Shown here in pieces: positions 8,506 to 59,657 of a stretch of 64,000 nucleotides of DNA. Numbering within the stretch: the stretch's first letter is position 1; each line of letters opens with the position of its first letter. The notes beneath the pieces were generated by a model. It made no database searches. It was not told the origin of the DNA and saw nothing but the letters and a program-made list of their open reading frames with translations. Source of the DNA: Sedimentibacter sp. MB31-C6 (GTDB lineage: Bacteria > Bacillota > Clostridia > Tissierellales > Sedimentibacteraceae); contig NZ_CP142396.1 in assembly GCF_035934735.1 (NCBI RefSeq), forward strand, positions 1,612,001 to 1,676,000, read 5' to 3'. The translations under genes were made by a program, and so were the position numbers.

Positions 8506-9291
8506 ATGTGGACTAGACCTGAGCTAAAATCATTAGCGAAGAGCGCTTTAAAGGGGAATTATTGGAAGTCATTTTTTATAAGTATCGTTATTTTAATTGC
8601 TGGAGGTGGAAACGGCGGAGGTAATTCAGGGTATAATTTTCACAAAGAAGATATCGAAGGGTTTATTAATTTTAATCCTAATGCTATTGGCATATTTATA
8701 ACTATAGCTTTATTAATTTTCGCATTTCGTTTGCTTATTGGGTATTCACTAGAGGTTGGTGGAATGAAATATTTTGTTCGTAGCGCTCAATACAAAAACA
8801 CTGATGGATGTATTGGCTTTGCTTTTGATGGCCAAAATTTTAAAGGTATTGTATCTGCTATGTTTCTTAGGGCATTTTATATATTTCTTTGGTCATTATT
8901 ATATATTGCAGCTATAGTTATAGCAATTTTTAGTCGAAAATTTATATTATTGTTATTTTCCCTTGTGTTAATAATACCTTCTATTGTAAAAGTGTATGCT
9001 TATTATATGGTTCCTTATATTTTATCCGATAATCCTAATATTGGTGCTAAAAGGGCTATCGAACTAAGTAATGAAATGATGATGGGTAATAAATTTGAAT
9101 TATTTTGTTTGCAGTTATCTTTTATTGGATGGATTTTACTAGGATTACTTGCCTTTGGTATTGGTGTTTTATTTGTTAATCCATATATTCATGCTACTAA
9201 TGCCCAATTGTACTTAGTTTTAAGAAGAAATGTTTTAGAAAGTAATTATACTAGCTATGAAGAATTAAATTTAGAAGAAGATTTTATATAG
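8506..9291 (+). CDS. DUF975-family integral membrane protein
   Basis: A 261-residue protein with about five membrane spans. The N-terminus (LKSLAKSALKGNYWKSFFISIVILIAGGG) and the glycine-rich stretch GGGNGGGNSG at 33-42 are typical of DUF975. Later segments FVRSAQ, KVYAYYMVPYILSDNP and GAKRAIELSNEMMMGNKFELF also fit this family. The function of DUF975 proteins is not established. Start ATG follows GGGGGGAT at a rather long spacing. Confidence 0.8.
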   Translation: MWTRPELKSLAKSALKGNYWKSFFISIVILIAGGGNGGGNSGYNFHKEDIEGFINFNPNAIGIFITIALLIFAFRLLIGYSLEVGGMKYFVRSAQYKNTDGCIGFAFDGQNFKGIVSAMFLRAFYIFLWSLLYIAAIVIAIFSRKFILLLFSLVLIIPSIVKVYAYYMVPYILSDNPNIGAKRAIELSNEMMMGNKFELFCLQLSFIGWILLGLLAFGIGVLFVNPYIHATNAQLYLVLRRNVLESNYTSYEELNLEEDFI

Positions 9292-9360
9292 TTATAGAGA
9301 TTATATATGTTATTATGAAAATAATGAAATAGATTAAATGACTACAGGAGGATTCAAACA

Positions 9361-9780
9361 GTGTTAAAAACACAGATAAATGCTAAATTAATAGGAAACA
9401 TGGCTTTTGAAATGGATATTAATGGCCATAAGGTAACAACTGATACTACAGTTGAAAATGGTGGTAATAATTTAGGACCAAGTCCTAAGGCCTTGCTATT
9501 GGCTGGGCTAGTAGGTTGTTCAGGTATTGATATAATGTCTATGATAGAAGAAAATAAAATTAATGTCGATGATTTGAATGTTTATATTGAATCTGAAACA
9601 AGAGATGAGGATCCTAAAATATATAATTATATAAAAATATTATATAAATTTAAGGGTAAAAATTTATCTTTTAATGAATTAGAGAAAATTGTAAAGCTTT
9701 CAATGGAAAAATATTGTGGTGTAGCTGCTATGCTAGAGAAAGTAGTACCAATTACTTATGAAGTTAAAATAGAAGAATGA
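9361..9780 (+). CDS. OsmC-family protein
   Basis: A 139-residue protein of the OsmC/YhfA type. Both redox cysteines are in place: Cys53 in LVGCSGIDIMSMI and Cys119 in EKYCGVAAMLEKV. OsmC/Ohr proteins reduce organic hydroperoxides using this thiol pair; YhfA-like members may have another role. Start is GTG at 9361 behind ACAGGAGGATT. The next gene begins only about 50 bp downstream on the same strand. Confidence 0.85.
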   Translation: MLKTQINAKLIGNMAFEMDINGHKVTTDTTVENGGNNLGPSPKALLLAGLVGCSGIDIMSMIEENKINVDDLNVYIESETRDEDPKIYNYIKILYKFKGKNLSFNELEKIVKLSMEKYCGVAAMLEKVVPITYEVKIEE

Positions 9781-9791
9781 TAGCATAAAAG

Positions 9792-9826
9792 CACCCCCTC
9801 CCGTATATACTAAATACGAGGGGGTG
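9792..9826 (+). promoter_or_regulatory. Hairpin masking the yyaC ribosome binding site
   Basis: CACCCCCTC (9792-9800) is perfectly complementary to GAGGGGGTG (9818-9826), which is the Shine-Dalgarno sequence for the TTG start at 9833. A further GTAT/ATAC pairing extends the stem around a 2-base bulge. The sequence after the stem is TTTCCTTTG, a poor T-run, so translational masking fits better than simple termination. It may also slow readthrough from the OsmC gene. Confidence 0.6.
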
Positions 9827-9832
9827 TTTCCT

Positions 9833-10396
9833 TTGAATCCAATAGAAGTTCATTATAAAAACAATTTCGCAAATATTAAAATAGGTCATTATTTATCAGA
9901 GTATTTAAATCAACATACGGCGATTATATGTATAGGTACTGATAAATGTATTATTGATAGTTTAGGACCTTTAATCGGAACAATGTTAGTTAAAAAAAAT
10001 ATATCTGTAGACGTATTTGGAACTTTAGATAAGCCTGTCCATGCTTTAAATTTAAATGAAAATATAAAGACAATTAAAAATAAGAAATATAATAATGTAT
10101 TAGCTATTGACGCATGTTTAAGTAATAAGAAAAAGCAGGGTATAATAGAGGTAAGGCATGGTCCTATTAATCCTGGTAAAGGAATTGGGAAATATCTGCC
10201 TGAAATTGGGGATGTGTCAATAATTGGAATAGTTGATTCTAGTGAGAAGGAGTTTAATGATTTAGTTCAAGATACTAGACTTTCTTTAATTTATGAAATG
10301 GCTGAAGTTATAAGCGAAGGTATATTAACTGCTTTTAATATGAATAATAATATAGGAGAATATTTATGTGATCAAGCATCTCTGAGCAGAACATAA
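9833..10396 (+). CDS. yyaC: YyaC/DUF1256-type sporulation protein
   Basis: A 187-residue protein with the DUF1256 pattern: AIICIGTDKCIIDSLGPLIG, DVFGTLDKPVHALN, VLAIDACLS, RHGPINPGKGIGKYLPEIGD. The fold resembles germination-protease/hydrogenase-maturation peptidases, and B. subtilis YyaC is sporulation associated; the exact substrate is not established. I prefer TTG at 9833 because GAGGGGGTG lies about 6 bases upstream; GTG at 9824 is within that site. The site is buried in a stable hairpin, suggesting translational control. Confidence 0.82.
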   Translation: MNPIEVHYKNNFANIKIGHYLSEYLNQHTAIICIGTDKCIIDSLGPLIGTMLVKKNISVDVFGTLDKPVHALNLNENIKTIKNKKYNNVLAIDACLSNKKKQGIIEVRHGPINPGKGIGKYLPEIGDVSIIGIVDSSEKEFNDLVQDTRLSLIYEMAEVISEGILTAFNMNNNIGEYLCDQASLSRT

Positions 10397-56271: not shown

Positions 56272-56814
56272 ATGTCAGATTCTCAAATAACTAAACGAGC
56301 ATTGGCTGATGCTATGAAGGAATTAATGTCTGTTCGTCCAATGAAGAAAATTAGTATAGGAGACATTGTTGAACGCTGCAATATGAATAGGCAAAGTTTT
56401 TATTATCATTTTAAGGACAAATATGATTTAGTAAATTGGATTTACTATACAGAATTTGTTGTAAAAGTTAAAGATAATTTATCTATGACTTCTTGGGAGT
56501 TTTTAGAGAAAATATGTGAATATTTTTATGATAATAAGAAGTTTTATACAAATGCATTTAAAGTTTCTGGTCAAAATTCATTTTCTGAATATTTTGTTGA
56601 AGTATTACATCCCATTTTAATTGTTCATTTAAACGACGTTTTTAATAAAAAGAAAAATGTAGATTTTTATGCTACTTTTTTTGCTGATGCTATAAGGGTT
56701 TCTATTTATCGCTGGTTAATAGAGGGAGCTAAAATTCCGCCTAAGGAATTTGTTAGTTTAATAAAAGCAGCTTTAACTGGAGCTGCTGTAAAGTTAGTAA
56801 ATGATTTATATTAA
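56272..56814 (+). CDS. TetR/AcrR-family regulator (DhaS-like)
   Basis: A 180-residue regulator with an N-terminal HTH: QITKRALADAMKELMSVRPM, ISIGDIVERCNMNRQSFYYHFKDKYDLVNW (helix-turn-helix, about 25-57). The C-terminal region (about 75-180) is helical and resembles the TetR_C_8 type of DhaS-like proteins; no ligand is evident. The stop overlaps the end of the convergent pseudoenzyme gene by 4 bp. Its position beside the radical-SAM pair suggests that it regulates them. Start follows AGAGGGGTGATAAGATT. Confidence 0.88.
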   Translation: MSDSQITKRALADAMKELMSVRPMKKISIGDIVERCNMNRQSFYYHFKDKYDLVNWIYYTEFVVKVKDNLSMTSWEFLEKICEYFYDNKKFYTNAFKVSGQNSFSEYFVEVLHPILIVHLNDVFNKKKNVDFYATFFADAIRVSIYRWLIEGAKIPPKEFVSLIKAALTGAAVKLVNDLY

Positions 56815-57875
56815 TCACAATTTGTACTTTGCTTTTTCATAGTTTTAGATAGAATTTCTTCAAATTTTATTGAACGAGTATTGTAACTAGTGATATTGTT
56901 TATATTAGATATTGATACCTTCCCATTACTTTTAATACATAAAAAACAGGATTCAACAGATATGTTTTTGTCGACATGAGCTATATCATTATAAAAATCC
57001 ATAAGAATAACAGGTGCATTTCCTCCTAATCTTGAGTTAGAAACATATGAATTTACTTTTTCTTCAACCTTTTCACTACAATTTTCGTCTTTAATTAAAA
57101 ATGCAAAATGTAAATCTATCTTATCTAACTCTGTAATATAATTTCCATTTATAATTTCATTATAAGATTCATAATTATAGTATCGATAAACACCATATAA
57201 ACATTTATTTTTGCGCAAATACTTTATAGTAGATAAAAGGTCATAATTTTTTTGAATTGGAATTATTGCTGAATCTAAAATAAATAACATTATATTGGTA
57301 TATGATTTTAATTTACATAAATTATTAGGCTTCAAGTATTTTGGGTTAAGGAATGCAACAAAAGCACAGTCTTTATTTTGTTCTAATATTGGAAAAAGAT
57401 AATCCAATTTTATATGATTGTTTTCTATCATAAACATATAACTGTATATACCTATTTTTTTTCCTTGTTGAATTAAATTTAAAACTTCAGTATTTGTAAG
57501 TTGATTTTCGATTGCTTCATTAAAATCAAATACAATTGTCCATGGAATATTATATCCATGACTCTTTTCATAATTTCTAATACTATTTGCACCATAAGTC
57601 CAACTTCTATAACCAATATTCATTCCAAAATCAGTTAGTATATTATGATTAACATTTTTCACAGTTTTTTCTATGATTGTATAATATGAACTGTTATCAT
57701 TATTTAATATATCATGAGCCAAGTTAAAGAAGTCTTTTTGAAAATGTCCAGTAGCAAAATATTCTCCTAAATCTAATAGATTCCTAACACCTCTTTTAGG
57801 ATTATCGTTAATATAGCGTAATCCACTTCTTACTGCAGTTTTAATTACTGTACATAAAAGTTCTTGATTCATCAT
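56811..57875 (-). CDS. Radical-SAM-like pseudoenzyme lacking Fe-S and SAM motifs
   Basis: A 354-residue protein that aligns collinearly with the radical-SAM protein at 58089: both have an N-terminal helical domain (YINDNP... / YLDADP...), NIPW at 109-112, LIQQGKKIGIYSYMF versus IIQQGKKLGTYMYIY, and KDCAFVAFLN versus DDCAFLAFTN, then MDFYND versus MDFWND. It lacks 14 residues that carry the CxxxCxxC loop, has IENN where the paralogue has GGEP, lacks the SPASM-like cysteines, and ends about 100 residues early. It is intact with a good start (GGAG) and no frameshift, so it looks like a maintained pseudoenzyme rather than debris. Function unknown. Confidence 0.72.
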   Translation of the reverse strand: MMNQELLCTVIKTAVRSGLRYINDNPKRGVRNLLDLGEYFATGHFQKDFFNLAHDILNNDNSSYYTIIEKTVKNVNHNILTDFGMNIGYRSWTYGANSIRNYEKSHGYNIPWTIVFDFNEAIENQLTNTEVLNLIQQGKKIGIYSYMFMIENNHIKLDYLFPILEQNKDCAFVAFLNPKYLKPNNLCKLKSYTNIMLFILDSAIIPIQKNYDLLSTIKYLRKNKCLYGVYRYYNYESYNEIINGNYITELDKIDLHFAFLIKDENCSEKVEEKVNSYVSNSRLGGNAPVILMDFYNDIAHVDKNISVESCFLCIKSNGKVSISNINNITSYNTRSIKFEEILSKTMKKQSTNCD

Positions 57876-57935
57876 AATTTTTACTCCAATAGAATTGTTT
57901 TATTATAATATAAACCTTATTGAATAAATATAAAA

Positions 57936-58014
57936 TAGACAAATTTAATAAATGTCAAAAAAATAGACAATATTTTTATTTGTCTAAAATTTTGACAATA
58001 TATAGAAATGTCTA
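57936..58014. promoter_or_regulatory. Three operator-like dyads TAGACA-N11-TGTCTA at 28-bp period
   Basis: Dyads start at 57936 (TAGACA...TGTCAA), 57964 (TAGACA...TGTCTA) and 57992 (TTGACA...TGTCTA). Each has exactly 11 bases between half-sites, and the three starts are exactly 28 bp apart. They lie between the divergent pseudoenzyme and radical-SAM genes, near both promoters. The arrangement suggests cooperative binding of a dimeric regulator, plausibly the adjacent TetR protein. Confidence 0.72.
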
Positions 58015-58088
58015 ATGAAAATATTTATTATTTATATTAAAATGTGAGCATAAAGATAATTATATAGTATTTAGTGAGGTGTAAAATT

Positions 58089-59465
58089 ATGAGTGATTTA
58101 AGCATAATTGAAAATTTGCAATCCTATGGTTTTAAAAAAGTTTTAGCTTATTTAGATGCAGACCCTGATAATAATATTCCTAAAATATTAGATTGGGTAA
58201 ATAAATTTGATAAGGATAATGTAGTAGAAAGACAAATGAATTCAATAAAAAGAGCTTTAGATGATACTGATGGCAACTGGTATAAGTTAGTTAAAAGTCT
58301 GTATGATGATATTGATAAAGATGTAAGAAAAACTATGTTTGAAAACTTTATTGTCAATGCTACTATTATTGGTGGTCAACGTCAAAAGAGGGCAAGGCAA
58401 GAAAATAATTGTAATATACCATGGGCTATTTTAATGGATCCTACCTCTGCATGTAACTTGCACTGTACCGGATGTTGGGCAGCTGATTATGGTAATAAAA
58501 TGAATATGGATTTAGATACATTAGATAGCATTATTCAACAAGGTAAAAAATTAGGAACTTATATGTATATTTACTCTGGTGGAGAACCTTTGGTACGTAA
58601 GGATGATATTATTAAATTATGTGAGAAACATGACGATTGTGCTTTTTTAGCTTTTACAAATGCCACATTAATTGATGAAGAATTTGCAGATGAAATGTTG
58701 CGAGTTAAAAACTTTTTACCTGCTATTAGCGTAGAAGGATTTGAGGAAGAAACTGATTTTAGACGAGGTGATGGGACTTACAAATCAGTTATTAAAGCCA
58801 TGAATATTCTTAAGAATAAAAAGTTACCGTTTGGTATTTCTTGTTGTTATACTAGCAAAAATTCTGAAATTATCGGCAGTGAGGAATATATAGATGATAT
58901 GATAGAAAAAGGAGCAAAATTCGCATGGTTTTTCACATATATGCCTATTGGAAATGACGCAGTACCAGAGTTGTTAGCAAATGCAGAGCAACGTGAATTT
59001 ATGTATCATCAAATTAGAGAGTTCAGAAAGACTAAACCAATATTTACAATGGACTTTTGGAATGATGGAGAGTATGTTAATGGATGTATAGCTGGAGGAC
59101 GAAATTATTTGCACATTAATGCAAATGGAGATATTGAGCCTTGTGCCTTTATTCATTATTCTGATACTAATATCCATGAAAGTACATTGCTTGAAGCTTA
59201 TAAAAATCCATTGTTTATGCAGTATAAAAAGAATCAACCTTTTAATAATAACCATTTACGACCATGCCCGTTGTTGGATAATCCAGGAAGGTTGTCAAAT
59301 ATGGTTGATAATGCAAAAGCAAAATCAACTGACATGAAAAACCCTGAAGATGTACACAAATTAAGCGAAAAATGCTTAGATGTTGCTAACAAATGGGCAC
59401 CAGTAGCAGATGATTTATGGGAGGAATCACAGAGAGATTGTGTTAAATGTACTGCATGTGAATAA
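58089..59465 (+). CDS. Radical SAM/SPASM-like enzyme
   Basis: A 458-residue protein: helical N-terminal domain (1-105), then a radical-SAM barrel with Cys122-x3-Cys126-x2-Cys129 in PTSACNLHCTGCWA, GGEP at 164-167 (YSGGEPLVRKDD), and a SPASM-like tail with Cys in NGCIAGG, IEPCAF, RPCPLL and the final CVKCTACE. Auxiliary clusters are therefore likely. Substrate and product are unknown. ATG at 58089 follows GAGGTGTAAAATT; GTG 58074 overlaps that site. It is transcribed away from its degenerate paralogue across three operator-like repeats. Confidence 0.88.
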   Translation: MSDLSIIENLQSYGFKKVLAYLDADPDNNIPKILDWVNKFDKDNVVERQMNSIKRALDDTDGNWYKLVKSLYDDIDKDVRKTMFENFIVNATIIGGQRQKRARQENNCNIPWAILMDPTSACNLHCTGCWAADYGNKMNMDLDTLDSIIQQGKKLGTYMYIYSGGEPLVRKDDIIKLCEKHDDCAFLAFTNATLIDEEFADEMLRVKNFLPAISVEGFEEETDFRRGDGTYKSVIKAMNILKNKKLPFGISCCYTSKNSEIIGSEEYIDDMIEKGAKFAWFFTYMPIGNDAVPELLANAEQREFMYHQIREFRKTKPIFTMDFWNDGEYVNGCIAGGRNYLHINANGDIEPCAFIHYSDTNIHESTLLEAYKNPLFMQYKKNQPFNNNHLRPCPLLDNPGRLSNMVDNAKAKSTDMKNPEDVHKLSEKCLDVANKWAPVADDLWEESQRDCVKCTACE

Positions 59466-59489
59466 ATAATAATATGACACGTCTCCCTC

Positions 59490-59556
59490 GGTATGCATAC
59501 AATGCATACCCTACAATGAAAATACGGACCTGTAGGGGACGCATTGTATGCGTCCC
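59490..59556. repeat. Dispersed hairpin repeat pair, copies 3 and 4 (opposite orientation)
   Basis: GGTATGCATACAATGCATACC-CTAC (59490-59514) is a variant of the repeat family and lies head-to-head with GTAGGGGACGCATTGT-ATGCGTCCC (59532-59556). The variant keeps its stem through paired changes (ACGCAT to ATGCAT on both arms), a sign that the hairpin itself is selected. It fills the gap after the radical-SAM gene and may end its transcript. Confidence 0.85.
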
Positions 59557-59657
59557 GCGATTATGCCTGAGAACTATTATTATATATAAAAGTTCTTTTT
59601 TTCTTGCTTAAATAATTATATTAGTTATAATTAAATAAAAGGGGGTGAAGGAGCAAT

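Follow-up and report, generated by a model that had tools for sequence, protein, structure and literature searches.

Three genes and the promoter region between two of them make up the locus that we analyzed in a 64,000-nucleotide stretch of DNA from Sedimentibacter sp. MB31-C6, hereafter the window (Table 1). The genes of a TetR-family regulator and of a short protein related to radical-SAM enzymes are convergent and overlap by 4 bp; the short gene is divergent from the gene of a long radical-SAM enzyme, and the promoter region lies between this pair. The positions of the three open reading frames in the initial annotation were confirmed, as were the good start and the absence of frameshifts in the short gene, i.e., GGAG stands upstream of its ATG and the frame is open.

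Table 1. Genes and operator-like repeats of the locus, with positions in the window
Feature	Position	Strand	Description	Evidence
TetR gene	56272..56814	+	DhaS-like TetR-family regulator, 180 aa	TIGR02366, TetR_N, TetR_C_8
Short gene	56811..57875	-	pseudo-radical-SAM protein, 354 aa, proposed TetR co-regulator	BLASTP to long protein
Operator-like inverted repeat 1	57938..57956		GACA-N11-TGTC, conserved in genus	
Operator-like inverted repeat 2	57966..57984		28 bp after repeat 1	
Operator-like inverted repeat 3	57994..58012		long-gene side, followed by nearly conserved TAATG	
Long gene	58089..59465	+	intact radical-SAM/SPASM enzyme, 458 aa, proposed target gene	PF04055, SPASM

The long protein belongs to the radical SAM/SPASM enzymes by its match to PF04055 (3.6e-18), its SPASM domain and its CxxxCxxC and GGEP motifs, both of which are present in all 13 long proteins that were aligned; the motif cysteines are Cys122, Cys126 and Cys129, as annotated initially. 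Its best NCBIfam match was TIGR04055 with 93.8 of 500 bits, and none of the 25 models shown came near its cut-off. The closest PDB sequence was SuiB (5v1q, 2.1e-7). A predicted structure of the long protein was poor (pLDDT 49.4) and was left out of the analysis, and a search of viral contigs gave no match. We also ran Pfam on ten neighbor genes; the names plsA/plsR, YidC, PgsA, FtsH and MetK given to neighbors are putative. Lipid-related genes recurred beside the long gene in some loci, and other loci had a MetK-like gene or nothing in common. As the neighbor content differs between loci, we make no functional claim for the long enzyme from its neighbors.

BLASTP aligned the short with the long protein at an E-value of 1e-16 and 20% identity over 332 columns, i.e., not end to end, as had been described, but over residues 19–350 of the long protein only. 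NIPW (109–112) is common to both proteins, and IENN takes the place of GGEP in the short one, as described. The C-terminal cysteine domain is gone from the short protein. The CxxxCxxC motif is lost as well, although not by the 14-residue gap to which the initial annotation had ascribed its removal: in the MAFFT alignment the cysteine columns read I, L and T and the gap follows directly after the third of them, hence the cysteines were lost by substitution beside a deletion, with the reservation that gap placement differs between BLASTP and MAFFT. The QQGKK stretch, likewise listed as kept, is not conserved across 22 diverse short proteins. W112 and D297 (of FYND) are invariant in this set and P111 is nearly so; the invariant columns number 13 (R28, R31, L33, D35, Y64, N86, G88, G95, W112, G142, N194, D297 and I305).

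No Pfam or NCBIfam model matched the short protein at E ≤ 1. Its predicted structure (pLDDT 79) has a radical-SAM-like fold, i.e., the (β/α)6 barrel of these enzymes with six strands at residues 113–117, 145–150, 171–176, 195–200, 227–233 and 257–262. The best PDB fold match of this model was again the radical-SAM enzyme SuiB (5v1q, 6.2e-9); the 18 best fold matches were all radical-SAM proteins, and tryptophan synthase and other barrels ranked lower.

Short proteins were found in Sedimentibacter and in scattered other Clostridia, in at least 30 genomes (11 of the genus, 18 outside it, and G467). Some genomes were scored on their best five (class) or best eight (order) candidates with a profile built from the genus, so divergent short proteins may have been missed. 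CxxxCxxC was absent from all 30 homologs, and CX2-9CX2C was also absent from the 27 distinct sequences among them. Of eight weaker matches examined, with frames below 411 aa, seven keep CxxxCxxC, and the one without it is the divergent relative in G467 (290 aa, 114 bits). No relative was confirmed when a genome collection was scanned with the single short protein. The same scan with the short alignment gave ten loci, each of which resembled the genus in title or content; this is no proof of absence elsewhere, because the two peptide patterns used had been derived from the genus alignment. A plasmid search with the short protein found no match.

In close pairs the short gene has a dN/dS of 0.17–0.31, which is well below 1 and speaks against relaxed selection. 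This value is about four to six times that of the long gene, compared over the same four pairs, and within the genus short proteins share 43–49% identity versus 78–83% for long proteins. In the tree, for which the program warned of long branches, 22 short proteins form one clade (SH-aLRT 100) apart from 56 long proteins. The short protein is hence no twin of its neighbor, as the initial annotation had called it, and the tree together with dN/dS ruled out a degenerated recent duplicate. A relic, i.e., a decaying duplicate that hitch-hikes with the TetR and long genes, is very improbable and already contradicted: the raised dN/dS relative to the long gene and the missing cysteine domain would suit decay, but the dN/dS of close pairs is low, the clade is single and spread over the class, and the in-frame stops reported for the short genes of G019, G020 and G510 are each gene's own stop codon at the match end. 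Short homologs are not usually disrupted, and they co-occur with the long form. We conclude from the 30 genomes without the cysteine motif, from dN/dS and from the single clade that the short protein is a maintained pseudoenzyme, as initially proposed, and not a decayed copy of its neighbor.

The closest tie of the short protein is to the TetR gene. Within the order (249 genomes), the 17 genomes with a short protein are identical to those with TetR at E ≤ 1e-35; a sample of the class (391 genomes) had 15 genomes with a short protein, 14 of them with TetR as well. Both sets united, a DhaS-like TetR accompanies the short protein in 29 of 30 genomes. The remaining one is G467, where no DhaS-like TetR was found within 15.4 kb around the short relative or genome-wide at E ≤ 1e-30. 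Ten of the 11 genus loci had TetR and short genes on the same stretch, the locus of G023 being divided between contigs; outside the genus this held for 17 of 18 loci, and the 18th has its TetR on another contig. In 12 of the 25 loci measured, the stop codons of the two genes overlapped by exactly 4 bp. The compact three-gene system described initially was found again across Clostridia genomes. We compared distances in 19 triads by mirror-tree analysis, in which unequal rates can inflate partial correlations: TetR and short protein were correlated given the long protein with r = 0.79 (reached in 0 of 5000 permutations), short and long protein given TetR with a likewise sizeable 0.49, and TetR and long protein given the short one with 0.05.

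A short protein that serves the long enzyme as a non-catalytic subunit or chaperone, by heterodimerization or substrate presentation, with TetR merely regulating both, would fit this second correlation. It would also fit the divergent arrangement of short and long genes, seen in 22 of the 30 genomes, and the presence of the short protein in all 11 genus genomes (of 25) that have a full-length close long form. We consider such a subunit unlikely. Outside the genus the long gene adjoins the short gene in 11 of 18 genomes and lies elsewhere in three, and in the other four (94–99% complete) TetR and short protein are kept with no long enzyme detected at E ≤ 1e-30. Furthermore, close long forms stand without an adjoining short gene in G301 and G047, and long-family enzymes occur in 121 of the 249 order genomes, 17 of which have the short protein. 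Since the long gene was undetected or lies elsewhere in these non-genus genomes, and 29 of the 30 genomes with a short protein have TetR, heterodimer formation with the long enzyme or its direct control, both offered in the initial annotation, are weakened as leading ideas.

The TetR protein is a DhaS-like regulator, i.e., it scored 132.4 bits against TIGR02366 (DhaS; cut-off 129) and contains the Pfam domains TetR_N and TetR_C_8. Its phmmer matches included 4mk6 (3.6e-24) and DhaS itself (2iu5, 5.2e-13). Of 28 class genomes with TetR (E ≤ 1e-30), 14 have no short protein. In three of these 14, G301, G463 and G596, it is encoded directly beside a long-type enzyme without a short gene, with an operator-like repeat in two of these, and therefore TetR does not need the short protein.

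Three phased operator-like repeats of 19 bp each lie between the short and long genes and recur in relatives. The second is strict in four of 11 genus loci and degenerate in the rest. Among 22 short/long intergenic regions, strict GACA-N11-TGTC was found in 15 and at least two copies in 12, and six had no N11 or N12 repeat. Four of the seven loci without an adjoining long gene had N11 or N12 sites upstream of the short gene, and in G281 and G336 the repeat takes the form GGACA-N12-TGTCC. The window contains four strict repeats against 0.33 expected, and two of the tandem form against none. In the whole genome GACAWN9WTGTC matched 16 sites, of which only the three at the locus cluster. We inspected six of the other 13 on five stretches: four lie inside open reading frames (two in L161, one each in L162 and L165), that of L163 lies between divergent frames, and that of L164 begins on the last bases of one frame and precedes the next. 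The latter two could be further targets or chance matches. A control pattern matched eight sites in the same genome and outnumbered the repeat pattern in G003 (40 versus 24) and G024 (31 versus 6), hence single sites carry little meaning. A wide regulon was rejected.

In Lactococcus lactis, as reportedly described by Christen et al. 2006, the TetR-family activator DhaS works with the co-activator DhaQ, a dead paralog of the DhaK kinase subunit, at an operator that is reportedly GGACACATN6ATTTGTCC. Our locus resembles this pair in the TetR subfamily, in that the regulator is encoded together with a dead protein related to the presumed target enzyme, and in the form of the repeats. It differs in the target enzyme and ligand, in having three phased repeats with a spacing of 11 in the genus, and in that the TetR–short complex is here a proposal. 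The short protein also has a predicted radical-SAM barrel instead of the DhaK fold, to which neither its domain search nor its fold matches pointed; it is thus not a member of the DhaQ family and may only work like one. SuiB and other SPASM enzymes, the best matches of the long sequence and of the short model, carry the cluster motif that the short protein lacks. TIGR04347 (pseudo-radical-SAM/SPASM) covers, by its name, radical-SAM-like proteins without radical-SAM function; however, only the long protein matches it (54 of 525 bits).

With slightly more confidence than doubt, we propose that the short protein is a dead radical-SAM relative that acts as ligand-sensing co-regulator of the DhaS-like TetR at the three phased operators. 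The TetR protein would bind these operators between the divergent genes. The short protein, in which the N-terminal helical domain and the predicted barrel are kept, would bind either the substrate of the enzyme or a similar compound and would contact the TetR protein such that transcription of the short and long genes changes. In this role it would probably help to decide when the long enzyme is produced. The logic may be that of DhaS with DhaQ, the direction of control would by analogy be activation, and the long gene would be the target of the pair. Computed parts of this picture are the pseudoenzyme state, selection, the single clade, near-complete TetR dependence, recurring operator-like repeats and co-variation. 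More tentatively, and with somewhat less than even confidence, we suggest that the short protein still has the substrate pocket, senses the compound on which its active relative acts and switches TetR on or off at the operators, the pair being re-used without the enzyme in some Clostridia. The G467 relative without TetR, the frequent TetR without short protein, the six promoters without repeats and the short–long correlation of 0.49 run counter to a co-regulator.

The short protein might instead be an enzyme or carrier with another, non-radical activity and simply a further TetR target gene, in favor of which the 13 invariant columns could form a binding or active site, the barrel is predicted to be kept, and the G467 relative exists without TetR. 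We rate this as somewhat less probable even than the subunit. The short protein evolves fast, nine of the 13 columns precede residue 113, where the first strand of the barrel begins, and TetR is its almost constant companion.

Kinases offer well-known examples of regulatory pseudoenzymes. To our knowledge, none built from a radical-SAM enzyme is known, and none was reported in the literature listings searched. If our proposal is true, the DhaS–DhaQ design, i.e., a TetR regulator with a dead enzyme as its sensor, would have evolved once more on a different fold, and the ligand of the dead protein would offer a route to the substrate of a large, uncharacterized radical-SAM family present in nearly half of the order genomes.

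The gene for the DhaS-like TetR regulator and the genes for the short pseudo-radical-SAM protein and the long radical-SAM enzyme were found in the window where the initial annotation had placed them, and homologous loci from a genome collection include one of Sedimentibacter saalensis DSM 13558. Domain search identifies the long protein as a radical-SAM/SPASM enzyme; the 25 of 57 matching NCBIfam models that were listed all scored far under their cut-offs, and on that evidence it belongs to no named family. The short protein is related to the long one (E 1e-16) and matched no family model in Pfam or NCBIfam.

Features of the TetR/short/long locus (window positions)
Feature	Position	Strand	Arrangement
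TetR gene	56272-56814	+	convergent with short gene, 4-bp overlap
Short gene (354 aa)	56811-57875	-	divergent from long gene, 213 bp between
GACA-N11-TGTC inverted repeat	57938-57956		between short and long genes, repeats 28 bp apart
GACA-N11-TGTC inverted repeat	57966-57984		as above
GACA-N11-TGTC inverted repeat	57994-58012		as above
Long gene (458 aa)	58089-59465	+	
GC-richer inverted-repeat stretch (read by eye)	59480-59560		after the long gene, ahead of the gene that follows; may be a terminator or a small repeat element

Searched with a profile built from the genus short proteins, 17 of the 249 genomes in the order proved to have a short form, as did 15 of 391 sampled Clostridia genomes, including G467, added on recheck; two genomes are common to both sets, i.e., 30 in total. 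Short and long forms were told apart by the missing motif and by frame length, because E-value alone was insufficient: the weakest short of the order (genome G125, 1e-44) is level in score with the top long protein. CxxxCxxC was present in none of the 30 short homologues found (two overlapping sets, of 18 and of 27 distinct sequences, totalling 29, plus G467), and GGE neither in the 27 distinct sequences nor in G467; the G023 sequence is cut by the contig end. All 13 aligned long proteins carry CxxxCxxC and GGEP.

Within Sedimentibacter, 11 of 25 genomes have the short protein (44–50% identity to the window protein in the ten others), and the same 11 have a full-length close long form (78–84% in the ten others); G005, 62% complete, holds only a long-gene fragment. 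TetR, short and long genes lie on one stretch in 10 of the 11 loci, and this cassette is constant while some flanking genes vary. The G023 locus is split across two contigs, with an in-frame stop in its long gene. Nei-Gojobori dN/dS of the short gene was 0.17, 0.26, 0.24 and 0.31 in four pairs with dS <1, that of the long gene 0.03, 0.07, 0.04 and 0.07 in the same pairs, and that of TetR 0.00 and 0.04 in the two pairs where it was measurable. Four pairs with dS >1 gave 0.11–0.26 for the short gene; a ninth was left out as too saturated. The short-gene values are low yet above those of the long gene, we hence conclude that the short gene is under purifying selection, but a weaker one. With the motif missing throughout, this bears out the earlier proposal of a maintained pseudoenzyme.

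The structure predicted for the short protein (pLDDT 79.1, pTM 0.82, built from 11 sequences) starts with a domain of helices, after which come six alternating barrel strands. Its top PDB fold matches were SuiB, viperin-like enzymes and lipoyl synthase; anSME ranks lower, amid other barrels, e.g., tryptophan synthase. With TM-scores of ~0.5, the model supports a radical-SAM-like fold class and no details beyond the class. In a tree, 22 shorts form a single branch (support 100) separate from 56 long proteins; the program warned of long branches, so that its attachment point is unsure. Nothing in the tree puts the short protein beside its neighbouring long enzyme, as its description as that enzyme's twin had implied.

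The TetR profile (E ≤ 1e-35) matched 17 of 249 order genomes, exactly those 17 with a short protein, and of the 15 class-sample genomes with a short, 14 have TetR at E ≤ 1e-30. The exception is G467, where a divergent 290-aa short relative adjoins a gene with a patatin-like start; no such TetR was found in 15.4 kb around it, and no long enzyme with a profile that does detect long forms elsewhere. This relative lies at 9289-10161 of locus L193, with a GACA-N12-TGTC repeat between it and the patatin-like-start gene.

The short protein might serve the long enzyme as a non-catalytic subunit, a reading weakened by genomes that have the short but lack the long gene. G467 apart, 18 non-genus genomes have the short protein; the long gene is adjacent in 11, elsewhere in three (G516, G489, G289) and absent at E ≤ 1e-30 from four (G322, G510, G281, G531; 94–99% complete), hence it is not required for the short. 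TetR, in turn, does not require the short protein, which is missing from 14 of 28 class genomes with TetR (E ≤ 1e-30). Among loci fetched from eight of these 14, three have TetR adjoining a long-type enzyme (G301, G463, G596; in G463 the long gene is preceded by a perfect-armed repeat, GGACAAATCACTCGATTTGTCC), one has it facing a gene with a P-type-ATPase-like start (G396), and in four TetR has neither neighbour. Six of the eight genomes, re-searched with a wider short profile, gave long frames only, or nothing. Since TetR is present without it, TetR can act alone, and gene content suggests that the short protein is an accessory added to it.

Distances among 19 triads correlated at 0.94 (TetR-short), 0.87 (short-long) and 0.82 (TetR-long). 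Partial correlations were 0.79 for TetR-short given long (0/5000 permutations), 0.49 for short-long given TetR and 0.05 for TetR-long given short; this fits a chain TetR-short-long, a pattern that rate differences can mimic, and the value of 0.49 leaves room for short-long contact.

GACA-N11-TGTC, a putative TetR operator, occurs four times in the window against 0.33 expected from shuffles, with two overlapping tandem matches against 0. Among 22 short/long intergenic regions, at least one strict site was present in 15, at least two in 12 and all three in 4; regions with two keep the outer pair, 57 bp apart, with a degenerate middle site. G336 has an N12 form, and neither N11 nor N12 repeats were found in these regions of G182, G181, G237, G125, G490 and G378. 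A nearly conserved TAATG follows the third repeat; a promoter of the long gene could lie here, and by analogy with DhaS, TetR would activate at this site. Of the seven loci where no long gene is adjacent, four have N11/N12 sites ahead of the short gene (G322, G510, G281, G516; in G510 and G516 the sites do not match a relaxed pattern with A/T-rich arms), whereas none were found upstream of it in G489, G289 and G531.

A P-type ATPase recurs around loci L150, L151, L152 and L179: three of the four genomes that have TetR and short and lack a long gene have its gene nearby, called by Pfam for L150 only and otherwise by tblastn; L151 and L179 have a GACA-N12-TGTC repeat between TetR and an ATPase-like gene, and at such loci TetR may control a pump. 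Lipid-related Pfam neighbours of TetR/short/long loci are CDP-alcohol phosphatidyltransferase, acyl-ACP thioesterase and 60KD_IMP (L154), patatin (L155) and, close to the L157 short gene, a BcrAD_BadFG/DUF2229 activase. The window's own genome has a second long-type gene, 54% identical (L038, C1:1834000-1850000), with no short beside it, flanked by patatin-like phospholipase and DegV-like genes. At L166 (G047:C45), two close long-type enzymes stand in tandem, separated by a TetR-like gene of another kind; the short protein is missing there. At L168 and L175, a distantly DhaS-like TetR gene lies upstream of a long-type radical-SAM gene, and immediately behind the latter comes an S-adenosylmethionine synthetase-like gene (identified by its start and tblastn among these loci).

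The best-supported reading is that the short protein is a co-regulator of the TetR protein: it would sense via its enzyme-like pocket and then act on TetR at the shared short/long promoter. DhaS-DhaQ is a known system of this design, DhaQ being a dead paralogue of a kinase subunit. The window TetR falls within the DhaS model, whereas the short protein is no DhaQ homologue, the analogy hence being one of "works like", not "is". What the initial annotation had observed thus stands with small corrections, its interpretation in part only, and we lean somewhat towards regarding the TetR-short system as a variation on a known type of regulation.
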